Part shown: piece by piece, positions 2,013 through 20,017 of the stretch | Layout of the letters: each line of letters opens with the position of its first letter | How positions within the stretch are numbered: position 1 is the stretch's first letter | IMG/VR virus record: IMGVR_UViG_3300028829_003511 | Coordinates: 1-31,014 of that record | Strand: one strand, 5' to 3' | Length of the DNA: 31,014 nt | DNA from: a virus | Program-made: the position numbers and the translations under genes | Notes under the pieces: model-generated | Seen by the model: the letters and a program-made list of their open reading frames with translations, nothing else | Told to the model about the DNA's origin: nothing | Databases searched by the model: none

Positions 2013-2495
2013 ATGATTTCTAATGATTTTGTTCTATATGAACCGAGATTGAGACCGGTTGGACGGTGTGGTGGACCTGAGAGGTATTCATCGCTGTGGA
2101 TGAACATTGCATCTGTGACGGCACTTGAATCATCAGCAACGAGACGAAAGGTTGGTTGTGTCGTTGTGACACAATCTATGGGGTTGTACACCGGTTATAA
2201 TGGTGTCATCGGAGGGTGTAACGAATGCGAGAATGATGATGGTCTTACGAAAGATGAGGTTATTCATGCCGAACAGAACGCATTTGATAAAATGTTGAGA
2301 GAGGGTGTGTCGTCAAAAGGATCAATCCTGTATGTCACTCTGGCACCATGTATTGAATGTGCCAAGAGGATTGTGAATTCTGGAATCCGAGCTGTCTATT
2401 ACAGGGACGAGTACCATACCACTAGTGGTATTGATTTTATAGCCAGACATGGTATAGAATGTAGACAGTGGGACGGTGTTTTTTTGAATACATAA
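2013..2495 (+). CDS. cd: Deoxycytidylate (dCMP) deaminase
   Basis: This 160-residue protein has the zinc site of the cytidine/dCMP deaminase family: HAE at residues 85-87, with the proton-shuttling glutamate, and PCIEC at 112-116 with the two cysteine ligands. It also has a G-Y-N-G substrate loop near 61-64. The enzyme turns dCMP into dUMP, feeding thymidylate synthesis for phage DNA. An extra C-N-E-C cluster near residues 69-72 recalls the second metal site of T4 dCMP deaminase. The start at 2013 is fixed by GGAGG four bases upstream. Its promoter overlaps the preceding terminator. Confidence 0.9.
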   Translation: MISNDFVLYEPRLRPVGRCGGPERYSSLWMNIASVTALESSATRRKVGCVVVTQSMGLYTGYNGVIGGCNECENDDGLTKDEVIHAEQNAFDKMLREGVSSKGSILYVTLAPCIECAKRIVNSGIRAVYYRDEYHTTSGIDFIARHGIECRQWDGVFLNT

Positions 2496-2511
2496 AAGAC
2501 GGAGATTTGTT

Positions 2512-2706
2512 ATGCTAGATTTTTTTATTGAGAAAAAGTACAGGTTGTTTGATATGGTTTGTGTCTTCATTATTGCACAATTGCTTATCGCTGGGTTTAT
2601 TATGTCATCAGTGGTATTCACTGTTATCGCTGCTGTTGTCTCAAACAGTCTCGATACCATATCTACCAAGAAAGAACAAGGCATTGGAGGTGATGGTAAT
2701 GAGTAG
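2512..2706 (+). CDS. Small membrane protein
   Basis: This 64-residue protein of unknown function has a long hydrophobic stretch (about residues 14-46) that could form one long or two short membrane helices, framed by a charged start and a polar, charged tail. An ACGGAG ribosome site lies just upstream. It follows the deaminase by 16 bases and overlaps the next gene by 8 bases, so the three are probably co-transcribed. It resembles the many small membrane proteins that T4-like phages make early against the host envelope, but nothing identifies its job. Confidence 0.6.
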   Translation: MLDFFIEKKYRLFDMVCVFIIAQLLIAGFIMSSVVFTVIAAVVSNSLDTISTKKEQGIGGDGNE

Positions 2707-3034
2707 TTCCGAGCGTAACCTAGGAAAGTTAACACCAATCGGGAATTCAGAGGAATATTGCAAATCAATTGGGGTTACTGAATTACCGGCATCATATGGG
2801 AACTTTAGAGAATACATCATAGAAGAACTGTGGGACAATGATGGTATCCTCGTCATTAACGATACCGTGTATTCTGTTGAGTGGAAAGTTAAGAGAGAGA
2901 AAGATGTACATTATTTCGCGGATGTGGAAGAGAACGAAGATGGAACCATCAATTTCCATACACTTCACTGGGATGGTGGTTCTAGTTTAAGTGAAGTCAT
3001 TGAGAGCGGTCTGAAACAGAATCGTGAAGGATGA
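2699..3034 (+). CDS. Hypothetical acidic protein
   Basis: This protein is 111 residues long when started at the ATG at 2699, which has GGAGG eight bases upstream. The same frame opens as far up as 2528, but that part overlaps the membrane-protein gene and has no ribosome site. The protein is acidic and probably globular, with no motif I recognise. It ends 68 bases before uvsX and is followed by a candidate promoter. Confidence 0.65.
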   Translation: MSSSERNLGKLTPIGNSEEYCKSIGVTELPASYGNFREYIIEELWDNDGILVINDTVYSVEWKVKREKDVHYFADVEENEDGTINFHTLHWDGGSSLSEVIESGLKQNREG

Positions 3035-3043
3035 TCTCCTGTA

Positions 3044-3072
3044 TTGCAAATCTATATGTGATATGGGATAAT
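3044..3072 (+). promoter_or_regulatory. Candidate sigma70-like promoter for uvsX
   Basis: TTGCAA (3044-3049), a 17-base spacer and GATAAT (3067-3072) match the consensus at 9 of 12 positions. They lie in the only gap before uvsX, about 30 bases from its start codon. Confidence 0.45.
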
Positions 3073-3102
3073 GAGTTGGTGAATCAAAAGAGGACACAAT
3101 GA

Positions 3103-4140
3103 ATGAGTTTAAGTAAATTTAGGAAAGCATTGGAGAAGAAAGAAATCGCAGTAGGATTACCTCCTATCGAGAAGTGGTTATCTTTCGATAACCTTGCTAT
3201 GAACTGGGTGTGTACCGGTTCCTTCAGACGTGCTGTTCCTCACCGTAGATCAATTCTGATCGGTGGAGAAAGCGGTGCCACGAAGACCATGAACCTTCTT
3301 CAACTTGCTAGAAAAGCACAAGATGGAGGATATCATGTCATATTGCTTGATAGTGAAACGTCTATTAGTGATCAAGACCTACAGATGAATAAGGTAAACA
3401 CAGACCCAGAGATGTTTACACCCATCGCCGTGACGACACATGAAGAAACTCTTGAGATCATCACAGAGGCTTTGAAGACGTTCGATGACGACGAAAAGAT
3501 ATTCTTCATACTCGATTCCATCACCGGCCTGATGACAGAATCAGAGGATGATAATTTCGATAAGGGTAAAACGACAAATGACATGGGTCGTATCGTTCAG
3601 GCAAATAAAAAATTCCTGAAGATGGTTGGTAACAGAATCCGTCACAAAGATTGGTTCTTTATAACAAGTTGTCACGTTTATCTGAACCAAGATCTACTCA
3701 ACGGAAAAGGAAAGTACATCTTCAGTAACGTGGGTAGCGCACTATATTACCCAAGTCTGTCTCTACAGCTAACAAAACTTGACCTCAAAGAAGGACAGGA
3801 GCAAATTGGTATTCGTGTGGATGTGACAACGAAGAAAAACCGGTTCTTCAAACTCGGTCAGAAAGTTCGTCTCAACCTACCATATGACCAAGGTGGTTTC
3901 GACCCATATGATGGGGTACTTGATATCCTTAAAGATCATGGGTACATCGGTCAAGCGGGAGCATGGTATTCTTTCGACCGTGTTGACGAGTATGGAGAGG
4001 TTACTGAAACCGTTAAGTTCCAGTCAAAGAACTTCTCTCAATATGCAGAAGAGCTTATCGACCGTTACGAAAAAGACCATGGTGATGTTCTTGAGCAAGA
4101 TGAGGTTGAGAATCACCTAGAAATGTTGGAAGAAGAATAA
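3103..4140 (+). CDS. uvsX: UvsX, RecA-like recombinase
   Basis: This 345-residue strand-exchange ATPase coats single-stranded DNA and drives recombination-dependent replication and repair. The Walker A region (GESGATKT, residues 55-62) has Thr where RecA has Gly; T4 UvsX also departs from consensus there. The Walker B stretch is IFFILDSITGL, and an acidic C-terminal tail is present, as in T4 UvsX, which has a similar length. The ATG at 3103 has AGAGGA eight bases upstream; a nearer ATG at 3099 stops after five codons. A bidirectional terminator follows. UvsY-like and UvsW partners lie beyond the minus-strand island. Confidence 0.9.
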   Translation: MSLSKFRKALEKKEIAVGLPPIEKWLSFDNLAMNWVCTGSFRRAVPHRRSILIGGESGATKTMNLLQLARKAQDGGYHVILLDSETSISDQDLQMNKVNTDPEMFTPIAVTTHEETLEIITEALKTFDDDEKIFFILDSITGLMTESEDDNFDKGKTTNDMGRIVQANKKFLKMVGNRIRHKDWFFITSCHVYLNQDLLNGKGKYIFSNVGSALYYPSLSLQLTKLDLKEGQEQIGIRVDVTTKKNRFFKLGQKVRLNLPYDQGGFDPYDGVLDILKDHGYIGQAGAWYSFDRVDEYGEVTETVKFQSKNFSQYAEELIDRYEKDHGDVLEQDEVENHLEMLEEE

Positions 4141-4147
4141 GAAAAAC

Positions 4148-4171
4148 AAAGGGGCTTTAAAGCCCCTTTTT
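4148..4171. terminator. Bidirectional terminator between converging units
   Basis: The palindrome AAAGGGGCTTTAAAGCCCCTTT (4148-4169) is followed by T on both strands. It lies between the end of uvsX (+) and the last gene of the minus-strand island, so it can stop transcription from both sides. Confidence 0.9.
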
Positions 4172-4180
4172 CATATCGTG

Positions 4181-5437
4181 TTATGTTACTTTCACTACTT
4201 TGATCCTTGGGTTTATGATTGCAAACCATCTTTCAGATGAGTTGTGATATTGATAAGAACCATCAATTCCGGTGTGCTTATTCCATGATTTGACGAATGC
4301 CTCAACACCAAAAGTACCGGCCAACATGGTCTGGAAGTTTCTTACCTCTTCACCTGAAATAAGGTCATATATCTCATCAATATGGTGCTTCTCTAACTCT
4401 TCCGGTTCTTCTAGGTAGACACCATAGTCGGTAACCAGATAGAACATCGCCTCTCTGTCCACCTTAGCCATATCGTACATGATGTTCATGATACTATGTT
4501 TACTGACGGCCTTTGATATCGGTATCCGACTGTCAATGAAGTTTCTCATATTAATGTCGGCCTTGATGATATTTTTACCATACGCTTTTGTGGTTTCCAG
4601 TCTGTCGGAAAAATATATCCCAACACCTTCTTGATTGTTACCGTTGTTCATGAGACGTGGCTCTAATGAACGTGTGTTGAAGTCATCACCGTGGTAAACT
4701 GTAATGATCCCTCCTACCGACTCGAACAGATCCCTTTTATTCTCATTTAAAACTTCATCATGTGAAATAAATTTGTCAAGTGACCTGTTGTACTTCTTCA
4801 ATGAATTTACAAAACCGTCGAAAGTTCCACACTCTAGTTTTATTTTAGTAAGATACGTTTCACATGTATTGAAATCCATTTTACCAAGAGCCACAGCTGC
4901 ATTAACCGTGTATTTGTATACTGGTGGTAGTACACTGGTTTGTGATAAAAGTTTACCATGGGCTTTCGTGTAGAGATCAAGAGATGATTTAACACTTGAT
5001 ACAAGGGTGTCATAGTCAATCCCCCTCATACTTGCCGTATTCCTCAGTTGTTCGTCTATCTCCATGTTAATCCCATATCCTGTTCTTATTATCTTTAGAC
5101 ACTTATTCACTTTATTGATAAGTGACTCGTGAGCGTATCCTATCGAGTGCATGGGTGTGGCACGATTGGTAAGATCCCCAATATGTTCAATCAGGTATGA
5201 TAGAGAACCACCCCCAATAACTTGTTGTGCTTTCATCATTGAAATTTCTGGTGCTCCTCTTTGATCATTACCTATTTTGGCGTATAACCATAAAACGTTT
5301 TTTGGGACACCTGTTACAGAATTCCATTCATTGATCAGGGGTTTCACCTTGCTTGGTATTCCAGACACAATGTTACTGATTGAAACAGCTTCATTAAATT
5401 GATTATGGATAGACTGGAATAAGTCTTTTATTTTCAT
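4181..5437 (-). CDS. Capsid-targeted ADP-ribosyltransferase-like protein
   Basis: This 418-residue protein is the last gene of the island. Residues 1-8 (MKIKDLFQ) are the shared leader, here with Q in place of the usual E at the likely cleavage site. Residues 10-240 are a helical region I do not recognise. Residues 245-418 match ADP-ribosyltransferases of the H-Y type found in phage polyvalent proteins: VYHGDD (His249), GVGIYFSDRLETTKAYG (272-288), and a C-terminal strand ending INPRIKVVKV. Such enzymes transfer ADP-ribose from NAD to host proteins or other targets; T4 Alt does this after injection with the DNA. The start lies 2 bases past the stop of the upstream gene. Target and activity are unknown. 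Confidence 0.65.
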   Translation of the reverse strand: MKIKDLFQSIHNQFNEAVSISNIVSGIPSKVKPLINEWNSVTGVPKNVLWLYAKIGNDQRGAPEISMMKAQQVIGGGSLSYLIEHIGDLTNRATPMHSIGYAHESLINKVNKCLKIIRTGYGINMEIDEQLRNTASMRGIDYDTLVSSVKSSLDLYTKAHGKLLSQTSVLPPVYKYTVNAAVALGKMDFNTCETYLTKIKLECGTFDGFVNSLKKYNRSLDKFISHDEVLNENKRDLFESVGGIITVYHGDDFNTRSLEPRLMNNGNNQEGVGIYFSDRLETTKAYGKNIIKADINMRNFIDSRIPISKAVSKHSIMNIMYDMAKVDREAMFYLVTDYGVYLEEPEELEKHHIDEIYDLISGEEVRNFQTMLAGTFGVEAFVKSWNKHTGIDGSYQYHNSSERWFAIINPRIKVVKVT

Positions 5438-5439
5438 TA

Positions 5440-6060
5440 TTAACCACCATATAGTTTAATAGTTTCTGAGGTAAGACCTAGATCGATGATAACAGGTTTC
5501 CCTTTGTATAATCCCCAGTTAGCCTTTCGTGAAAGATCCATAGGAGGTATGTCGAAGTTGACAACAAGATCTTGTAGATCTTCGAAAAACTCATTTTCAT
5601 GTAAACTGTCTGGGATTAACCCATCTCGTCGATTACCACTTCTGGCAAAATCAAGGTACAGTGCAATATCATCCATGCGAACGCCATCAAAATAACGTTC
5701 TAGCTGTTTCTGTGTGATCTTTTGTGCATACTCTGTATGTATCCAAGAAATCCGACTCCCGTTCTCTTCGTCGTAGTCAATAAGAGGGATCACAATGTCG
5801 AGTTGTTTAATGTACCAGTCTTCTAACAGGTGTGCTTCTTCAAAATTCTGGGCGATGCCTTTATTGTTTGTTGCCACCTTTATTACGGTCTTTCGACCTT
5901 GATATGGTATTTCGAACGCCACTCTACTACTACCACGTCCTACCTGACTAGCCCTTTCCTTTGCATAAGAAACCATCTGTCTGAATGATGTTCTTGGTGA
6001 GAACTTTTCCTTATCCCAGTCATCCGGTAACGGTGCTTCAAATAGTTCTTTTATTTTCAT
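5440..6060 (-). CDS. Capsid-targeted small kinase-like protein
   Basis: This 206-residue protein begins MKIKELFE followed by Ala, giving a clean L-x-E/A site of the kind cut by T4 prohead protease. The body has a kinase-type order of motifs: a glycine-rich loop (GRGSSRVAF, 41-49), a lysine strand (VIKVA, Lys61), a glutamate helix (EEAHLLE, 74-80), and a catalytic-loop-like DLSRKANWGL (Asn181) leading to VIIDLG (Asp193), equivalent to DFG. No clear HRD motif is present, so activity is uncertain. It may phosphorylate host proteins or act as a pseudokinase. The start and the eight leader codons lie inside the 144-bp repeat, and the ATG overlaps the stop of the orphan tail by one base. Confidence 0.55.
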   Translation of the reverse strand: MKIKELFEAPLPDDWDKEKFSPRTSFRQMVSYAKERASQVGRGSSRVAFEIPYQGRKTVIKVATNNKGIAQNFEEAHLLEDWYIKQLDIVIPLIDYDEENGSRISWIHTEYAQKITQKQLERYFDGVRMDDIALYLDFARSGNRRDGLIPDSLHENEFFEDLQDLVVNFDIPPMDLSRKANWGLYKGKPVIIDLGLTSETIKLYGG

Positions 6061-6179
6061 TATTCAATCCTAATTTTGTTTTTGATGACGATGATTGATG
6101 GGTCAAAAACTGCTATCTCGTACAGTCCTGGTTCGATTTTCTCATAACTTGCCTGTATCTTATACTTTTTTAGGAGTTC
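6036..6179. repeat. 144-bp perfect direct repeat, copy 1
   Basis: This stretch is identical, base for base, to 6688-6831, with an offset of 652 bases. Read on the minus strand it holds a 39-residue orphan C-terminal coding tail, then the TAATG junction, then the MKIKELFE leader codons of the kinase-like gene. Confidence 0.98.
6060..6179 (-). pseudogene. Orphan C-terminal tail of an ADP-ribosyltransferase, copy 1
   Basis: On the minus strand this frame reads 39 codons, from ELLKKYKIQ through GLYEIAVFDPSIIVIK, to a stop that overlaps the next ATG. The pattern of a small turn followed by E-x-A-V-F-D-P-x-x-I is the usual end of polyvalent-type ADP-ribosyltransferase domains. Here it follows the unknown gene at 6170-6712 in a different frame (shifted by one base), so it is not translated as part of that gene unless a frameshift occurs. 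It has no start of its own. It appears to be a recombination remnant. Confidence 0.6.
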
Positions 6180-6712
6180 GAACTGTCCCAAAAAGTACCA
6201 CCCTTGGTGCGTTTATCATATTCATATATGTATTTTTTACCGTTAAGTTCCACGAGAAATAAAGCCCCCGTGCTACTGTAGGTTTCAAAGTCTTGTGCAT
6301 TTGATCGTACACAGACCCGCATGTTAGAGCACAACTTTTTCGCTGCTGCAAAGTTTTCGATGATTGTGATTTTTATGTTCGATCTATCGACAATAAGCTC
6401 GAAGGATGGGATCTTGTCTTCTGCATCACTAAGAACTCCTCTGAATTTTAACAACCAACTATATGCCTCGTGGTGTGTTTTGGATGAGTTTGCTAACCCA
6501 ATCCACTTGCTTATGTCTTTCTCTTTTGGTCCTATAAGACCCCTTGATGCATAGTCCTTGAACCTCTGAAGGTCCATCTTGCTTACTTGAACTGCATTAT
6601 GATCTCCCATTCGATCACCAAGAGCGAGCTTATACGTTGTAGCAAAAATACGTTCTGCATCTTTATAACTTTCAAGGAGAACGTTTTCTTCAAATAGTTC
6701 TTTTATTTTCAT
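6170..6712 (-). CDS. Capsid-targeted protein of unknown function, probably cut short
   Basis: This 180-residue protein begins MKIKELFE, followed by Glu. The middle is helical. Residues from about 115 to the end hold a compact region with MRVCVRSNAQDFETYSSTG and then two strands (ALFLVELNGKKYIYEYD). Its layout recalls the PcfJ-like or polyvalent domains of phage head proteins, but that is only a resemblance. The last three codons (Asn-Ser-stop region) lie inside the 144-bp repeat, so the natural C-terminus has probably been replaced. Both its start and its end fall in copies of the repeat, so the gene is exactly framed by them. Confidence 0.5.
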   Translation of the reverse strand: MKIKELFEENVLLESYKDAERIFATTYKLALGDRMGDHNAVQVSKMDLQRFKDYASRGLIGPKEKDISKWIGLANSSKTHHEAYSWLLKFRGVLSDAEDKIPSFELIVDRSNIKITIIENFAAAKKLCSNMRVCVRSNAQDFETYSSTGALFLVELNGKKYIYEYDKRTKGGTFWDSSNS

Positions 6713-6831
6713 TATTCAATCCTAATTTTGTTTTTGATGACGATGATTGATGGGTCAAAAACTGCTATCTCGTACAGTCCTGGTTCGATTTTCTCATAAC
6801 TTGCCTGTATCTTATACTTTTTTAGGAGTTC
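6688..6831. repeat. 144-bp perfect direct repeat, copy 2
   Basis: This is the second identical copy of 6036-6179. It carries the orphan tail and the leader codons of the gene at 6170-6712. Sequence outside the two copies does not match on either side. Confidence 0.98.
6712..6831 (-). pseudogene. Orphan C-terminal tail of an ADP-ribosyltransferase, copy 2
   Basis: This is the same 39-codon tail as at 6060-6179, directly downstream of the short ADP-ribosyltransferase gene 6822-7220 but shifted by one base. Joined to that gene it would supply the missing end of the domain (GLYEIAVFDPSIIVIK), so this is the likelier original home of the tail. The junction suggests an internal deletion or a single-base indel in the transferase gene. 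Confidence 0.6.
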
Positions 6832-7220
6832 AAGCCGCCAATCAAACCACGCCCATGTTTCAACGTGCTATGCCCTGGTGTGTCGTATAATTCCGATGCA
6901 GATGATAGTCCTAATTCTCTTGCGATGTATTCAAACGCCGAACGTGTTCCGTCGTCCATTTTAACAATTGCATCATATGCATGACCTGTTATACGAAGCT
7001 GGACTTCATAAATATATTTTTCTGCTGTTTTTGCATATCTGGTATACATTTCTGCGTGGGCTCTATCGTTGATGAAATATATACCTCTCCCAAGTATGTG
7101 GTTATTTTCTCCACTTCCAATAAACCTCATATCAAACTTTGTTAAATCACCGCCTCCATGATACCAAGTTAAACCACGCAACATACTTTCTTCATTTTCG
7201 AATAACTCTCTGATCTTCAT
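6822..7220 (-). CDS. Capsid-targeted ADP-ribosyltransferase-like protein, C-terminus lost
   Basis: This 132-residue protein has the leader MKIRELFE. The body matches the N-terminal two thirds of an H-Y type ADP-ribosyltransferase: TWYHGGGDLTKF (His21), GRGIYFINDRAHAEMYTRYA (44-63), a strand YIYEVQLRI, and HGRGLIGGL near the end. It stops three codons into the 144-bp repeat. The expected C-terminal strands are present in the next 120 bases but in another frame. The product is therefore probably an inactive or altered transferase, unless the downstream frame is reached. Its ATG directly follows the stop of the gene upstream, showing operon coupling. Confidence 0.6.
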   Translation of the reverse strand: MKIRELFENEESMLRGLTWYHGGGDLTKFDMRFIGSGENNHILGRGIYFINDRAHAEMYTRYAKTAEKYIYEVQLRITGHAYDAIVKMDDGTRSAFEYIARELGLSSASELYDTPGHSTLKHGRGLIGGLNS

Positions 7221-8120
7221 TTAACGTGTACTCCACTTATCAACCAAGAAATCCGCTAAGTCTTTTGCGTCTCTCAAACCATTCTTTCTCATAAATTCAC
7301 CGATTTTTCTTAGCGTCGGTCTCAATGATGAGTAGTTCTGAGCCATATGCAATTCTGTCCCAATAGACCCTTTCGCGTCTATGGGTCTGGTATATCTGTC
7401 AAGACGATGCCATTCTTCTGATGTGAACAAATTTTTGTCATCAACAACCATCGCTTTGTAGATGAGGCCGAGGTCATTTTTCGGTTTCGCTCCCATGGTT
7501 GAGCGCATGTTCATGTACCTGTCATCATCTGTCTGTTCTCTTGAGATGGTCTTAACTTCCGGTCTATCGTAAGAGATTAGTTCTTCGAAGGACACGGTGT
7601 TACCGCTTCCCGTGATCCAGTCACGATTATCCTTGTACAACCTTACCGGTATTCCTTTTTTCTTGAGGATGCTGACGAGATCAAGAACGAGTTTGTTCTG
7701 CACCTGACTATCCCTTCCATCTGGGGCAATGAGAATGTCAACCCTGTTGACAAACTTAGATGCATCCTTTATTGTGTCTTTGTTGGAGTAAATGCGATCC
7801 TCTTGCTCATAGGAACCATTTGCAGCACGACGGAAATCAGCCCCCCAATAGTCCATGGGTTCACCGGTAAGATTGTTTGATAACAGTCTTCCATCAAGCT
7901 CAATCAACACGGAATACATTGAATTCTCAATGTGGTATTTTCCTGTGCGAGTTCTTGACGTTGACAGGTAGTAGTTATATTTTTCGTGGGACTCAATACC
8001 CTTTGTGAACGTCGGTGACATTCTGAACTCATTGTTCTTGAAGATGTCTAATGCACTTCTTACGCTACGTGCATAGAACAAGGTGGGGCTTAGACCTTCA
8101 AATAAATCTCTAATTTTCAC
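7221..8120 (-). CDS. Capsid-targeted protein, possibly ADP-ribosyltransferase-like
   Basis: This 299-residue protein is the first gene of the island. It starts at GTG with AAGGAAAG upstream; the leader MKIRDLFE followed by Gly fits an L-x-E/G cleavage site and supports this start. The next part contains LFYARS (Arg18), YYLSTSRTRTGKY (51-62), a strand VLIELDGRLL and EQEDRI (105-110). This set recalls a common phage protein family with a conserved E-x-E-(D/E)-R motif. The order Arg, S-T-S, E-x-E is also that of R-S-E ADP-ribosyltransferases such as T4 Alt, but this is inference. The C-terminal half is not recognised. Confidence 0.5.
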   Translation of the reverse strand: MKIRDLFEGLSPTLFYARSVRSALDIFKNNEFRMSPTFTKGIESHEKYNYYLSTSRTRTGKYHIENSMYSVLIELDGRLLSNNLTGEPMDYWGADFRRAANGSYEQEDRIYSNKDTIKDASKFVNRVDILIAPDGRDSQVQNKLVLDLVSILKKKGIPVRLYKDNRDWITGSGNTVSFEELISYDRPEVKTISREQTDDDRYMNMRSTMGAKPKNDLGLIYKAMVVDDKNLFTSEEWHRLDRYTRPIDAKGSIGTELHMAQNYSSLRPTLRKIGEFMRKNGLRDAKDLADFLVDKWSTR

Positions 8121-8149
8121 TTGACTTTCCTTACATGATCTAATAAAAT
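8121..8149 (+). promoter_or_regulatory. Sigma70-like promoter for the recombination genes
   Basis: TTGACT (8121-8126), a 17-base spacer and TAAAAT (8144-8149) match the consensus at 10 of 12 positions. They lie in the divergent gap, pointing at the UvsY-like gene at 8189. Confidence 0.6.
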
Positions 8150-8163
8150 ACTATTTCAGAATA

Positions 8164-8171
8164 TATTTATT
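8164..8171 (-). promoter_or_regulatory. Candidate T4-type late promoter for the effector island
   Basis: The minus strand reads AATAAATA, seven of eight bases of the T4 late box TATAAATA, about 43 bases before the GTG of the first island gene. Late timing would fit proteins packed into the head. One mismatch in AT-rich DNA makes this tentative. Confidence 0.35.
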
Positions 8172-8188
8172 CGTCATGGGGGTAATAA

Positions 8189-8653: not shown

Positions 8654-8989
8654 ATGTGTGACGAAAGGAAACATCTGACTTATGAAGAGCGCATGATGAT
8701 CGAAAGGGTCAAGTCTGACATTCTCTCAAAAATTGCGAAACATCAAGAGGTGGTTGATTCTTCGTCTTTTATGATTGTTGAACATTACCAAAACATCAAA
8801 GATGACAAAGAACGGGTCATGGATTGGTTGAACCGTCTTGTGTTGGAAAGTAACAGACGAGAAACCGGAGATATGAATCTTGAAAACGATCTGAAGTGTC
8901 TTTCATCGCTAATCGCCATCGAGGAGCTGCGAGAGCAATACGATAATATTGAAAAAACAAACAACATCAGAGGATATACAGTCGGATGA
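8654..8989 (+). CDS. Hypothetical helical protein
   Basis: This 111-residue, highly charged protein is predicted to be nearly all helix and may form a coiled coil. TGAGG lies eight bases before the ATG at 8654; a neighbouring ATG at 8650 stops after three codons. Its end overlaps the uvsW start by four bases (ATGA), so it is translationally coupled to the helicase. T4 has small genes between uvsY and uvsW too, but I cannot claim homology. Confidence 0.6.
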   Translation: MCDERKHLTYEERMMIERVKSDILSKIAKHQEVVDSSSFMIVEHYQNIKDDKERVMDWLNRLVLESNRRETGDMNLENDLKCLSSLIAIEELREQYDNIEKTNNIRGYTVG

Positions 8990-11367
8990 TATGTATAACT
9001 ATCTTGGATGAGGTTAACTGTGTCATTGATGGTTTAGAACCACAGGAACTCAGGAAACTTCAGGACAGTATAAAATTCAAGGAAAAGGGTGCACATATGA
9101 CAGCGGCCTTCCGTCTCGGTGAGTGGGATGGGTTTGTTTCTATGGTTGCTGATGATGGGGTGTTTGCTCTGTACCACATTGATCATGTTATCGATTTTGT
9201 TGTAGATCGTCTTGGTTATGGTGAGGATGAGATAGAACTCGTAGATGAGAGACCTGAATGTGTTGTCCCAGATGGGGTGACCGCCATTGATGAAAACTTC
9301 TTATTGAAGTACACGGGTAATGTCCTGAGGGACTATCAGGTCGATGGGATCAACGATGCCATATACAACAAGAAAGGTATCTTGCATCTTGCGACAAACT
9401 CCGGTAAGACTCAGATCACGCTTGGTATTTCCAAGTTACTGGACCCCTACATAAAGACAATTACGATAGTACCTTCTGCTCAGCTTGCGAAGCAGACATA
9501 CGAAGACTATCAGTTATGTGAAGACATAAAAAGCTGTCTACTGACATCAAAGGACTCTCAGTCCAAGAGGATCGAGAAGATAAGAGAACATAGACATTTC
9601 GTCATAACGGAGAAGCTCTTCCTCAATCTTATTGAGGAGTTTGAGAAAGATGTTTATGCCATCATGAAAGACGAATGCTTCCATCCGTCGCACATGTTGA
9701 TGGGTGAGAATGGGTGGAAACCGGTTGCGGATTTTGTTGAAGGGGAGAAGGTTCTTGCATACAACCCAGAAACGGGTAAATCGGCATTCGAACCGGTTCT
9801 AAGGACGGTCAAGAAGCCTTTCAGTGGAAACCTGAAGCATCTTAAAGGTCCGAATGGTCGATACGATTTACTGGTAACACCAAACCATGAACAGCCATAT
9901 TGGACATCTGATACAGGGAAGCTTAAACGCTGTACGTTTGGTGAGATGAAGAAGGGGTATGTAATCCCGACATCAACAGAGATCGAGGGTGATGAACCGC
10001 TTTCAGATCTCGATAGACTGAAGATCGCATTTGAAGCTGACGGTCACCTTCTAAGAACTGATCAGGATGGTGTGAACACATATCGTTTCATGTTCAGAAA
10101 GGAGAGGAAGATTGAGAGACTTGAGAGCATACTCAACAACCTCGGTAAGGAGTACAAGAAGAGTGTGAACATCCGTGGTGACACGTCGATCACGTTCAAA
10201 GAAGTTGAAACGTACCAAAAGTCGATCAAGTGGTTCGACCCATTCAAAAGTGGGAAGGCGAACGCGATGTTCATTGAAGAGCTGGTGTATTGGGATGGGT
10301 GGTATTGTGAGAATGCAAAGACCCCTTCACTGTTTTGGGAAAAGCAGATCGATAAGAGCGAGACGGAGCATGCATATCTAATAGCCAAACTTGGTGGGTA
10401 TCGCCCTAAGATGACAGAACATATCAACGGAGGAGGACATCCAGTATATCGGATATCCAGCATCAAGAAGGCTCGCACAAAGCTGACAAACAGTGTTCCA
10501 ATTGATGTACCATACACCGGCTATGTTCATTGTGTGACTGTGCCTAGTGGGAATCTAGTAACCATGAGGGAAGGGACAATATCCATAACAGGTAACTGTC
10601 ACATTTTTGGTGAGGTTCTTGAGGATGCTATTCGGTACAGAACCCCACATTATCCGGTACGAATTGGATTAACCGGAACAATCCCAACAGACCCATACAA
10701 GGCTGAAAGGATAAAGTGTGTTCTTGGTGGTGGTGTCTTGAGACATGTCCCACCAGCAGAGCTTATTGAACGAGGTCTTGCCGCAAAACCAACGATAAAG
10801 GTTGTGACCGTTACTCATACCGAAATTGAATCTCTGTTTAAGGCAATGAAGGATGAAAAACAGTTCGAATGGAGTATTGAGCAGGCTTATATGATGAAAA
10901 ACGTTGAGAGGGCTGAGGCAATCGCGGCGTACATCAAAAAGGTTGTTGACGACGACCCAAAAAATACATTGGTTCTGTGTCATGCAGCGTTTGGTAAGGT
11001 TCTCTCTGGTGTTATGGGTCTTCCTATCATCACAGACGATGTATCGGTAGATGAACGTGGGGAGATGTTTGCGAAGTTCAGAGAGAGTGATGATCACATC
11101 CAGCTTGCATCGTTCGGAACAAGTTCAACTGGTATTTCCGAAAACCGGATCTTCCGTCTCGTATTGATTGATGTTGGTAAGGATGAGACGACGATCATAC
11201 AGTCGATTGGTAGGGGTATTCGTCTCGATGGGGTTCATAACAAGGTTGATGTTATCGATATCTCCTCAAACACGTTCTATTCAACGAAACATCGCAAAGA
11301 GCGTCTGAAGGTTTACAAAAGAGAGAAGTACGAGTACCATGAAGACAATAATTTTATTTGTGTATAG
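8986..11367 (+). CDS. uvsW: UvsW DNA/RNA helicase, interrupted by an intein
   Basis: The 793-residue precursor contains a 486-residue helicase after removal of residues 231-537; T4 UvsW has 503. The N-terminal region (1-110) resembles the UvsW DNA-binding domain. LATNSGKT (Walker A, Lys141) follows VLRDYQVDG, motif II is DE plus CH once spliced, GLTGT is motif III, and IIQSIGRGIR is motif VI. UvsW unwinds and regresses branched DNA and removes R-loops, switching T4 from origin-dependent to recombination-dependent replication. Without splicing, motif II is broken and the helicase cannot work. The ATG overlaps the preceding stop. Confidence 0.9.
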   Translation: MICITILDEVNCVIDGLEPQELRKLQDSIKFKEKGAHMTAAFRLGEWDGFVSMVADDGVFALYHIDHVIDFVVDRLGYGEDEIELVDERPECVVPDGVTAIDENFLLKYTGNVLRDYQVDGINDAIYNKKGILHLATNSGKTQITLGISKLLDPYIKTITIVPSAQLAKQTYEDYQLCEDIKSCLLTSKDSQSKRIEKIREHRHFVITEKLFLNLIEEFEKDVYAIMKDECFHPSHMLMGENGWKPVADFVEGEKVLAYNPETGKSAFEPVLRTVKKPFSGNLKHLKGPNGRYDLLVTPNHEQPYWTSDTGKLKRCTFGEMKKGYVIPTSTEIEGDEPLSDLDRLKIAFEADGHLLRTDQDGVNTYRFMFRKERKIERLESILNNLGKEYKKSVNIRGDTSITFKEVETYQKSIKWFDPFKSGKANAMFIEELVYWDGWYCENAKTPSLFWEKQIDKSETEHAYLIAKLGGYRPKMTEHINGGGHPVYRISSIKKARTKLTNSVPIDVPYTGYVHCVTVPSGNLVTMREGTISITGNCHIFGEVLEDAIRYRTPHYPVRIGLTGTIPTDPYKAERIKCVLGGGVLRHVPPAELIERGLAAKPTIKVVTVTHTEIESLFKAMKDEKQFEWSIEQAYMMKNVERAEAIAAYIKKVVDDDPKNTLVLCHAAFGKVLSGVMGLPIITDDVSVDERGEMFAKFRESDDHIQLASFGTSSTGISENRIFRLVLIDVGKDETTIIQSIGRGIRLDGVHNKVDVIDISSNTFYSTKHRKERLKVYKREKYEYHEDNNFICV
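9676..10596 (+). mobile_element. Intein with a LAGLIDADG-type homing endonuclease region
   Basis: This is 307 residues, from Cys231 to Asn537 of the UvsW precursor. The N-terminal splicing block begins with Cys and includes GWKPVADFVEGEKVLAY. Block B is LLVTPNHEQPYW. The C-terminal block is YVHCVTVPSGNLVTM and ends ISITGN, followed by extein Cys. The usual penultimate His is replaced by Gly, a variant that can still splice. The middle holds two endonuclease-type motifs, LKIAFEADGHL and FIEELVYWDGWY, spaced like the two LAGLIDADG helices. Insertion is exactly between DE and CH of helicase motif II, a highly conserved site of the kind inteins favour. Codon use looks like that of the host gene. 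Confidence 0.92.
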
Positions 11368-17295: not shown

Positions 17296-17321
17296 CAACC
17301 GCTTGAAATGAATCATATAAT
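17292..17321 (+). promoter_or_regulatory. Consensus sigma70 promoter for DNA polymerase
   Basis: TTGACA (17292-17297), an 18-base spacer and TATAAT (17316-17321) are perfect boxes; only the spacer is one base longer than ideal. The expected start is near 17328, about 40 bases before the polymerase ATG. The -35 box overlaps the dsbA stop codon. Confidence 0.85.
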
Positions 17322-17343
17322 ATACCCTCTAAGTGAGGGTATA
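17321..17343 (+). other. Inverted repeat over the polymerase transcription start
   Basis: A perfect 9-bp stem (TATACCCTC with GAGGGTATA, 17321-17329 and 17335-17343) with a 5-base loop directly abuts the -10 box, followed by only a short T run. In read-through RNA from upstream it could act as a weak terminator or processing site. In DNA it could be an operator. A transcript starting at 17328 would lack most of the 5' arm. Confidence 0.7.
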
Positions 17344-17367
17344 TTTGTTTATAGAGGACACGGGAAT

Positions 17368-19089
17368 ATGGATTATAGTTATATTGATGTCACGGACAAC
17401 AAAGAAAATGTCGTTGTTTGGTGTCGTGACATGTCGGGAACACTCATAAAGAAAGAACACCCGATAGAAGAGTTTCTGTACTGTTTCACTATCTCAAATA
17501 CGGGGGAGACCGAATACAAAGACATTTATGGGGCACCTCTGAGGAAAGTCACATTCAACGACAAATGGGAAATGCGGGACTATAGCAAGACTCATGACGG
17601 TTTATGTGAGTCTGACGTACAACCATCATACAAGGCTCTGCTGGACATGTTTGCCGAAGCTCCTACGAATGCCCCATATAATGTTCTCTATTATGATATT
17701 GAGAACGACTTTGACCTTTCGGATGGACGTGGATATCCACTACCCAGCAACCCGTTCGCACCAATTAACAGCTTCCAATTTTACGACTCGAACACCAAGA
17801 CGTATGGGGTTGTGTATGTCTGTGACAAGCCGTTTAAAAAGACCGTAGACCCAGACGGTGATGATGTTGAATTTATCAAGTGTAAAGATGAGCGAGAGCT
17901 TATCCTGACGGTTGCGAACCTCCTTGATGTGCTTGATGTTGATATCATGACTGGGTGGAACGTTGATGGATATGACTTACCGATGATCATGGCACGGGCG
18001 TCAATTCTGTTTGGTGAGAGTCAGGCAAAGACCATGTTTTGCCGTAACGGGTTTCCTGCAAGGAAGAGGGAATATGTTGATGACTTCGGTGGGGATGCTG
18101 TTAAGTGGACATTGGTTGGACGCCAGCACCTCGATATGATGGAACTCTACAAGAAGTTCATTCCATCTGAGAAGAAGTCTTTCAGTCTGTCGAATGTGTG
18201 TAAGGAAGACCTTGGGGTTGATAAGGTCAACTATGATGGTGACCTCGGTGAACTTTATAGGACGAACCCAGACAAGTTTTTTGAATATGCTTTCTGGGAT
18301 GCTAAACTACTTAGGATGTTGGACGAGAAACATGAAATCATCCGTTTGGCTGTGACACTGGCACGTATGAACTGTGTGAAACCCTCGGATGTAACCGGTG
18401 CAGTGAAACCCATTGAGTCAGGTATCATGAAATACGCACATAAAGACGGTATCAGATTGCCAGACAAGAAGGATAACAGTAAAGAGAAGTTCGAAGGTGC
18501 TATTGTATATGATACTATTGCAGGAAGACATGGTTGGGTATCCACTATTGACTTGAACCAATTGTATCCAGCAACTCTTATGATGTTGGGACTGTCACCT
18601 GATACGATGATAATGGAACTTGACGACGGTTATGAAGGCTATGTCAAGGTTATGTCAAAGAGTGAAGAGGTTATCGGTGTGAAGATCTTGGATAGGGGAA
18701 TCGAGTCGGAACATGTTGAAGTGAAGGCGTCCGAGATTGAGTCTGTCATAAGAGAGAACGGGTATACCCTGTCTGCTGCTGGTATTGTGTTTAGTGGTAA
18801 GTTCGGTTTTCTCGCCAGTTATGTGAAATATGTAACAGATCAGAGGTCTGTCTATAAGAAGAAGATGAAAGAAGCGCTTAATGCCAATAATGAATATGAA
18901 TATGAGTTGAATAACCTATATCAGAAAGTTATTAAGATCCTTGCGAACTCAATCTATGGGTGCTCGGGTGAGGTGTCTTTCCGGTTGTTTGACTTACGTT
19001 TGAGTCGTAGTATAACATTGACAGCCCGAATCATTTCTAAATGGCAGGCATGGAAAGGTAATGATGTCATAAATTTGTTGAAAGGGTAA
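17368..19089 (+). CDS. 43: Family B DNA polymerase, N-terminal part (exonuclease, fingers, motifs A and B)
   Basis: This protein is 573 residues from the ATG at 17368, which has AGAGGA nine bases upstream; the frame also opens at 17308 but that lies inside the promoter. The exonuclease site is YYDIEND (Asp110, Glu112; T4 gp43 has 112 and 114, which supports this start), GWNVDGYDLPM and YAFWDAKLL. Polymerase motif A is TIDLNQLYPAT (Asp395) and motif B is KILANSIYG. The frame ends at LLKG, before motif C. The missing palm is in the next frame, so the product alone should keep proofreading but not synthesis. Confidence 0.92.
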   Translation: MDYSYIDVTDNKENVVVWCRDMSGTLIKKEHPIEEFLYCFTISNTGETEYKDIYGAPLRKVTFNDKWEMRDYSKTHDGLCESDVQPSYKALLDMFAEAPTNAPYNVLYYDIENDFDLSDGRGYPLPSNPFAPINSFQFYDSNTKTYGVVYVCDKPFKKTVDPDGDDVEFIKCKDERELILTVANLLDVLDVDIMTGWNVDGYDLPMIMARASILFGESQAKTMFCRNGFPARKREYVDDFGGDAVKWTLVGRQHLDMMELYKKFIPSEKKSFSLSNVCKEDLGVDKVNYDGDLGELYRTNPDKFFEYAFWDAKLLRMLDEKHEIIRLAVTLARMNCVKPSDVTGAVKPIESGIMKYAHKDGIRLPDKKDNSKEKFEGAIVYDTIAGRHGWVSTIDLNQLYPATLMMLGLSPDTMIMELDDGYEGYVKVMSKSEEVIGVKILDRGIESEHVEVKASEIESVIRENGYTLSAAGIVFSGKFGFLASYVKYVTDQRSVYKKKMKEALNANNEYEYELNNLYQKVIKILANSIYGCSGEVSFRLFDLRLSRSITLTARIISKWQAWKGNDVINLLKG

Positions 19090-19096
19090 AGAAGAT

Positions 19097-20017
19097 ATGG
19101 TATATGAAGATTTTAGAGAAGACCAGAAGAAACCCAATACCTGTTGGTGTTGGGTTCCATATGAGGTTGGTGGGTTTTCATGGGAAGAAGCGTGGTTGAA
19201 CAATGTTGTGGCTGGTGACACCGACTCTGCCATGTTCTCACTGTCATCACTGTTTGATGATGACCATTCTGATATTGATGAGGTGGTAGAAGTTGCGGAT
19301 GCTATTGGGGAAATAGCGAACGACTCATTTTCAGATTTTTGTAAATTTGCATTTAACTGCCCAGACGACAGAACGTTTTTCATCAAGACGGAACGTGAGG
19401 TGGTATCGGATAAATCCCTGTTTCTGTCTAAGAAACGATATATAATGCATATCGTCGATAACGAGGGTGAGCGATGTGACAAGTTGAAGATACAAGGTGT
19501 CGAACTCAAAAAATCAGATACATCCATCGCCGTCAAGGACATGCTCAATGAGCTTGTTATGATGATATTGGACAATAAGGGAATGGCCGATGTTGTGGGT
19601 CGTGTGTCTCAGATGCGGAACGAGTTTAAGAAACGAACGGTACATGAGATTGCTGTTCCGTGTAACACAAAGACACTGACAAAAGTTCAAAAAGGTTATG
19701 AGGTGACTGGGAGCCTCAAAGGTGCTCATTATTCGGCCAAGTCTGCATTTTGGTGGAATAAGATGAAAACCCCACAAGACCAAGAGGTATTCGCTGGGCA
19801 GAAAGTCGGTCTTGTGTATGTTAACCACCCAAAATTTGATAGCATCGGGTTCCCAATTGACCTTGAGACCCTGCCTGAGTGGTTCACCAGTATCCCTATT
19901 GATTACAATACTATGTGGGAGAAGGCATATAAAAAGTTGACAAACTATCTCAAGGCTGTAGAATGGGATATAGAATCTCGTAGAGAGAACAAGAAGAAAG
20001 AACTATTTGGATTTTAA
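19097..20017 (+). CDS. 43: Family B DNA polymerase, C-terminal part (motif C and thumb)
   Basis: This 306-residue protein supplies motif C (AGDTDS, Asp41 and Asp43), the KKRYIM motif, a KIQGVELKKSDTS stretch like that of T4 gp43, and a C-terminal LFGF resembling the clamp-binding end of T4 polymerase. It starts 7 bases after the first part stops, in the +1 frame. That frame is already open from 19082, so a single base change or a +1 ribosomal shift would give a joined protein of about 880 residues (T4: 898). Residues 1-35 lack a counterpart in T4, so the break lies in an expanded loop. A two-subunit polymerase, as known in some T4-related Aeromonas phages, is also possible. Confidence 0.9.
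   Translation: MVYEDFREDQKKPNTCWCWVPYEVGGFSWEEAWLNNVVAGDTDSAMFSLSSLFDDDHSDIDEVVEVADAIGEIANDSFSDFCKFAFNCPDDRTFFIKTEREVVSDKSLFLSKKRYIMHIVDNEGERCDKLKIQGVELKKSDTSIAVKDMLNELVMMILDNKGMADVVGRVSQMRNEFKKRTVHEIAVPCNTKTLTKVQKGYEVTGSLKGAHYSAKSAFWWNKMKTPQDQEVFAGQKVGLVYVNHPKFDSIGFPIDLETLPEWFTSIPIDYNTMWEKAYKKLTNYLKAVEWDIESRRENKKKELFGF

Follow-up and report, generated by a model that had tools for sequence, protein, structure and literature searches.

The 144-bp direct repeat described here is probably a true and unusually fresh recombination scar, which lies in an operon of probable capsid cargo; the scar is of a known kind, and each of its components is an already known kind of thing. The window analysed is a complete virus record of 31,014 bases. 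With modest confidence, we lean towards the view that the scar formed when the gene between the two repeat copies, g180, joined the putative cargo operon through a shared leader, and that the repeat itself is no functional element.

A whole-window repeat search and a script agreed with the earlier note that positions 6036-6179 and 6688-6831 are identical at 144 of 144 bases and that their flanks diverge at once. The copies start 652 bases apart, and a chance origin of such a match in 31 kb is excluded. The contig holds 1.22 copies of this 652-bp unit, that is, fewer than two copies head to tail. On the minus strand each copy runs from GAACTCC through 39 codons ending in KIRIE and a stop codon, a TAATG stop/start overlap and the leader MKIKELFE to one further base, with a ribosome-site-like AGGA preceding the start codon in both copies (Table 1). 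The shared gene start that had been noticed before is real, and its extent is here corrected to eight leader codons plus one base, so that the repeat ends one base beyond the predicted leader cleavage point. As also described before, the middle gene begins with its ATG (6712) within one copy and ends in Asn-Ser-stop (6170) ten bases into the other. That both copies contain the 39-codon tail and the leader is correct; that the tail belongs to the genes upstream of both copies is not, as it lies in the -1 frame relative to each. Both upstream genes (the ART ORF and g180) terminate within the first ten repeat bases, in the same other frame. Because the identity is perfect although the sequence now lies mostly outside reading frames, a recent event is suggested, in line with the earlier proposal. 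Elsewhere in the window, a perfect 60-bp tandem duplication (1480-1599), in frame and with a unit of 20 residues, lies within a 504-aa gene (433-1947) and constitutes a second exact duplication within the same 31 kb.

Table 1. Features of the leader-gene island and of the repeat (window coordinates)
Feature	Position	Strand	Remarks
Terminator-like hairpin	4148..4169	-	directly beyond the last island gene
418-aa gene	4181..5437	-	C-terminal ART-like domain (sub-threshold PF18760); leader MKIKDLFQ
Kinase-like gene, 206 aa	5440..6060	-	leader, then conserved mature start APLPDDWD; fold match weak
Repeat copy 2, 144 bp	6036..6179	-	displaced ART 3' end, AGGA, start and leader of kinase-like gene
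Kinase-like leader, codons 1-8	6037..6060	-	bases identical to those of g180; AGGA at 6068-6071
39 codons and stop, second copy	6060..6179	-	3' of g180 and out of frame with it
g180, 180 aa	6170..6712	-	weak match to start of phrog_28193 (1.2e-5); stop codon from repeat copy 2
Repeat copy 1, 144 bp	6688..6831	-	ART 3' end, ribosome-site-like AGGA, start and leader of g180
g180 leader, codons 1-8, MKIKELFE	6689..6712	-	putative capsid-targeting sequence; AGGA at 6720-6723
39 codons, ELLKKYKIQASYEKIEPGLYEIAVFDPSIIVIKNKIRIE, and stop	6712..6831	-	not in the frame of the ORF upstream; probable displaced C-terminus of ART
ART-type gene, 132 aa as read	6822..7220	-	PF18760 positions 7-62 of 140; C-terminus displaced, frame break near repeat border
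299-aa gene, first in island	7221..8120	-	leader MKIRDLFE; four matches in Slicko01

As judged from sequence, the ART gene (7220-6822) has likely had its C-terminus displaced, and the 39 codons would be that C-terminus. Against the ART-PolyVal profile (PF18760) this gene scores 26.8 bits, below the curated cut-off of 31.2, and its two orthologues, from Alishewanella phage Slicko01 and record L065, pass that cut-off with 38.4 and 45.2 bits, covering profile positions 10-131 and 8-134 of 140, respectively. Because these full-length orthologues pass, the window's gene reads as a broken member of the family. Moreover, the ART part (129 residues), one residue X and the 39-codon tail add up to 169 residues, as compared with 170 in the Slicko01 counterpart and 169 in that of L065, and the proteins can be aligned over their full length. 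The ART frame break is located to some 45 bases around the repeat border, above which 12 codons are free of stops. A programmed -1 frameshift is unlikely, as inspection revealed no in-frame slippery heptamer before the stop.

Further comparisons of the tail gave mixed results. An IMG/VR scan with the tail motif EIAVFDP, itself taken from the tail and thus the means by which these contigs were selected, yielded 37 viral contigs; in 11 of these, by eye, the motif closes the ART domain of an ART ORF, about eight of the cases being independent. Among the 37, L047, L050 and L062, and also L042 and L046, are near copies, and L056 is a fragment. The window's own tail was absent from the printed stretches of the 37 contigs. 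When the tail was compared with ART C-termini, the match was weak, with shuffled tails scoring as well in 103 of 2000 trials (L065) and 246 of 2000 (Slicko01); the corresponding counts for island proteins other than ART were 382-1994 of 2000, and 67 for a protein from L011 that is matched elsewhere. Joining the tail to the ART ORF brought no gain in score, neither against PF18760 (26.6 vs 26.8 bits for the ORF alone) nor against phrog_4700 (0.0031 vs 0.0018); the matches to both stop before the tail. These unimproved profile scores count against the tail being the ART C-terminus.

By sequence, orthology of the ART gene is weak, with a single tblastn match (L065, 9.7e-4, 34% over residues 1-87), no match at 0.01 in seven other records and none at 1e-3 by phmmer. 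The assignment rests on PF18760, on length and on position within a leader island. A pattern search of IMG/VR with the 132-residue protein returned nothing, and the ART protein with joined tail had no match at 0.001 among phage records, where four records reached E values of 0.5-3 at a limit of 10. With the repeated tail most likely derived from the upstream ART gene, copy 6688-6831 is probably in its native context at the 5' side, and copy 6036-6179 is probably the additional one.

The earlier note had explained the arrangement by a duplication whose second body was later replaced by the kinase-like gene. This we could not uphold: relatives share the kinase-like gene together with its conserved mature start, and g180 was found in none of those searched, a weak negative. 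The kinase-like gene is present in Slicko01, L065 and L066, which have comparable leader islands, and also in L004 and L005. Among homologues from six contigs the length and sequence of the leader vary, and conservation sets in from the final leader E, after which comes [A/T]PLP. Given its presence in relatives, the gene is probably an old resident and not a replacement. Its kinase fold is suggestive only. The predicted model has a pLDDT of 55.6, and of the best 50 of 521 Foldseek rows 44 are kinases or kinase-like by title, with a best E value of 0.19 and none of the 521 at 0.001 or better. For this weak model, VIA gave kinases Z scores of at most 2.1, lower than those of non-kinase rows (up to 3.1), and a PDB sequence search with the protein retrieved no kinase.

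If either gene is the newcomer, the sequence comparison makes g180 the likelier one, because the kinase-like gene is common to relatives and g180 was found in none. No match to g180 was seen in any relative searched, by tblastn against phage records at E 1 or by a pattern search of IMG/VR; diverged copies could be missed, and this negative is a weak one because the ART orthologues, too, escaped such a search at 1e-3. A search of 14 records with the phrog_28193 profile was silent for the controls too and so shows nothing. A native C-terminus of g180 was not found, its base composition does not set it apart, and its predicted structure (pLDDT 42.7) is too poor to use.

The course of events that we favor may be outlined as follows. 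The ancestral order would have been an ART gene ending in the 39-codon tail, the TAATG overlap and a leader-bearing gene, perhaps the kinase-like one. The g180 body would then have joined the operon, with one side recombining through the shared leader and the other end being joined to an earlier position within the ART gene, where no homology is now visible; the stretch from this join point to the leader end would thereby have been copied twice. In this process copy 1 would have supplied g180 with its ribosome site, start and leader and copy 2 with its stop codon, the kinase-like gene would have stayed intact behind the copied start and leader, and the ART gene would have come out with its frame broken at the join or close to it. 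That leaders may act as recombination seams, as suggested earlier, is plausible, given that one repeat border coincides with the end of this common leader; recombination at this border is understandable from the homology that existed there. The product also looks, as had been supposed, to lie in a series of effector-type genes that bear leaders. No relative with the same junction was found, and the order of events is an inference. The position of the ART frame break so near the repeat border is a coincidence that insertion of g180 alone does not explain. Once formed, the two 144-bp repeats around g180 could recombine with one another, leaving the gene open to deletion or amplification with the 652-bp unit of repeat and g180.

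The same final sequence would also result if ART, g180 and the kinase-like gene were the original order, the segment from within ART to within g180 was duplicated in tandem by microhomology, and the second g180 body was subsequently lost by recombination of its leader with that of the kinase-like gene. We regard this sequence of events as unlikely, if still a serious contender. It accounts for the cut end of g180 without recourse to foreign DNA, and it has precedents: segmental duplications in T4 are reported to arise at microhomologies of 6-10 bp (PMC9391042), and a 718-bp unit in T6 to truncate a gene at its end in a similar way (PMC13096335). However, it requires two events, no native C-terminus of g180 came to light, and g180 was seen in no relative searched while the kinase-like and 299-type genes were found there, weak as that negative is.

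A variant in which a broken DNA end plays the central part appears quite improbable to us. The repeat border would be a favoured site of breakage. Both GAACTCC joins (ART to repeat, with its frame break, and g180 to repeat) would have been made to one broken end, such as a homing endonuclease leaves, and the repeats would let the phage extend or trim an array of leader and g180 units, thus multiplying or shedding an injected effector gene as needed, with the assembly possibly hiding copies. One relative, L065, has a gene resembling those of homing endonucleases in its uvsX slot (8719-9771), and an agent of this sort would be required. A variable array, if real, would make the finding more notable.

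Repeats of about 144 bp are difficult for short reads. The record is a virus contig and the repeat is longer than the usual assembly words; the contig might thread two strains of a mixed population, or a multi-copy array, through the repeat, and the ART frame break close to the repeat border might be a joining error. We consider an origin of this kind improbable. An assembler can set g180 between two copies only if it has a junction leading from repeat into g180 and another leading from g180 into repeat; some molecules should therefore carry both, and it is mainly the number of units that is doubtful. Moreover, the perfect 60-bp tandem repeat mentioned above, short enough to read through, suggests that this phage undergoes real duplications.

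The PeSL cassettes of T4-type phages combine an early promoter with a stem-loop in the space between genes and may help to shuffle modules. A working cassette of this type, with a promoter and stem-loop or a recombination signal reused between effector bodies, would suit the observation that ribosome site, start and leader sit together in the repeat as a single unit between bodies, and terminator-like hairpins do occur beyond the 5' borders, one 17 bases away at 6867-6848 (-) and the other 16 bases away at 6195-6210 (+), on opposite strands. Yet the repeat contains no terminator-like site, nor any promoter-like site on its coding strand, and thus no such pair there as PeSL cassettes have. In a scan with the sigma-70-type consensus, which leaves phage-specific promoters outside its scope, each copy had one 9-of-12 promoter-like match on the other strand, and the region had 13 matches against 10.9 expected. 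The RNA fold of the repeat is not unusual (z 0.45) and there is no Rfam match. In four related islands, among the repeat families shown (5 of 8, 1 of 1, 5 of 5 and 5 of 15), junctions share only the leader and a few bases. With no combination of promoter and stem-loop, no distinctive fold and no Rfam family, we rejected a regulatory cassette or RNA element, and a shuffling function of the repeat seems highly improbable.

As far as primary structure can tell, the leader resembles the capsid-targeting sequences of T4-type phages, with a putative site for the prohead protease (L-x-E) at its end. All five island genes (8120-4181, minus strand) start with MKI[KR][ED]LF[EQ], the 299-aa gene from GTG. 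The eight genes of the Slicko01 island have leaders of the type MKIxxLYExxLxE, a motif present in 8 of 8 island genes and in 1 of 188 other CDS. T4-type internal proteins share, across unrelated bodies, an N-terminal propeptide of about 10-20 residues; the island leaders fit this pattern, those of the window being shorter at about 8 residues. A strict [LI]xE ending at residues 7-17 was found in 34 of 37 island proteins, as against 16 of 68 controls (36 flanking Slicko01 CDS and 32 hand-picked window ORFs), of which two matches (L013 1141 and 23389) themselves resemble leader genes. Four of the five window proteins have an L/I-x-E site; the 418-aa protein is among the three of 37 that have no strict site. 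Both the Slicko01 leader motif and the [LI]xE rule were written after the island leaders had been viewed, and hence describe rather than predict. A search with a typed leader pattern found nothing.

Within one phage, the leaders of different families are more alike (similarity 0.55, 47 pairs) than are the leaders of one family in different phages (0.37, 31 pairs), a difference reached in none of 5000 shuffles; when g180 was set aside the values were 0.52 and 0.37, reached in 15 of 5000, and L011 was excluded from this comparison throughout. Peptidase_S77 (PF03420, the gp21 family) is present in five of seven records searched, including Slicko01 and L065; the gp21-type protease is thus known here from relatives, the window not covering head genes. 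Slicko01 head proteins have, by eye, similar E-ending N-terminal stretches. In T4, the internal proteins and Alt are packed by means of such a leader and gp21 cuts after L/I-x-E (PMC9026906, PMC5694885). By analogy, the five genes of the window would form one operon. Its products would use a capsid-targeting sequence at the N-terminus to enter the prohead, would lose it when a gp21-type protease cuts after L-x-E, and would be injected with the DNA; we infer that the island probably encodes packed, injected proteins.

Leader-bearing genes also lie outside the main islands, at L013 1141-1599 (MKIDDLLENLLVE...), L065 852-1316 (MNIDQLYTTLTE...) and 56478-56972 of the Slicko01 record (MNITELYEALTSE...). 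L011 (1611-12056) has about 15 genes in a run, most with a leader of the MRAIELYE type and with varied bodies; its leader DNA is 66-88% alike in the families shown.

Comparison of island content among relatives, as the earlier note had advised, showed kinase-like, 299-type and ART genes to be present in some of them and the window's junction to recur in none. L065 and L066 carry islands similar to that of Slicko01 (OQ508956.1), where eight leader genes include ART, 299-type and kinase-like members; the 299-type and kinase-like genes are found in all three, the ART gene in Slicko01 and L065. The Slicko01 island differs from that of the window in being free of such a repeat, its leaders being 63-78% alike in DNA, and in its location: in Slicko01 and L065 the island adjoins a PhoH gene (PF02562), whereas in the window it lies between uvsX and a 149-aa gene. 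The island has thus moved between genomic sites. Between uvsX and the 149-aa gene the window has its island (4141-8188), L065 a gene with a GIY-YIG domain (8719-9771, minus strand) and Slicko01 only 33 bases (L013 16018-16050), so that this slot is possibly an insertion hot spot. Closer relatives did not emerge: among 50,697 phage records, neither 20 kb searched by megablast nor the island searched by blastn had a match, and a UvsX pattern search of IMG/VR gave none either. Nor did NCBIfam and PADLOC models match any of the five island proteins above cut-off, PADLOC giving none at 0.1.

Among known systems, the island is most readily likened to T4 IPI-IPIII and Alt, with which it has in common a short N-terminal leader of the type ending in L/I-x-E, diverse bodies, ART cargo and, in relatives, a gp21-type protease. 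It differs in that the gene families are others and that packing and cleavage are predictions here. Moreover, the window has five genes in one run beside uvsX, whereas T4 has three ip genes at two loci; Ip1, Ip2 and Ip3 of T4, cargo of this leader type, are reported to counter one type IV restriction enzyme of the host each (PMC12373910). The repeat in turn resembles the segmental amplifications of T4 and T6 (TifA, SegB/tRNA-Tyr) in its direct-repeat unit of several hundred bases, its junction-cut gene and the presence of a UvsX-type recombinase. Unlike those laboratory-selected cases, the window displays a natural 144-bp repeat around one gene, in two copies as read in the contig. T4 and T6 are reported to form tandem segments at microhomologies, and T6 to need UvsX for this (PMC9391042, PMC13096335).

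A review of T4-type genomes finds few clues to the agents of lateral transfer and describes junctions as typically bearing no known mobile-element signature (PMC2993671). The junction in the window may be fresh enough to read, with one side at the end of a packing signal and the other in the neighbouring gene. If this is true, packing signals would be landing points that give a new protein a ticket into the phage head. Among the top-ranked papers in open-access full text, and in passages of papers on T4 heads, jumbo phages and viral ARTs, no earlier account of leader islands like these or of their recombination was found; what these sources say of the internal proteins of T4 and of phage ARTs that are packed is general.

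Two further features of the window have counterparts in the relatives. Its UvsW-like helicase gene (8986-11367) has an intein-like insert, with a sub-threshold Intein_splicing match; the Slicko01 counterpart also has an insert, with a sub-threshold Hint match, and that of L065 is shorter. The family B DNA polymerase is divided between two ORFs, 17308-19089 and 19097-20017, matching PF00136 positions 13-189 and 222-411, and the annotation of Slicko01 likewise has two adjacent DNA polymerase genes (2491-4194 and 4194-5129).
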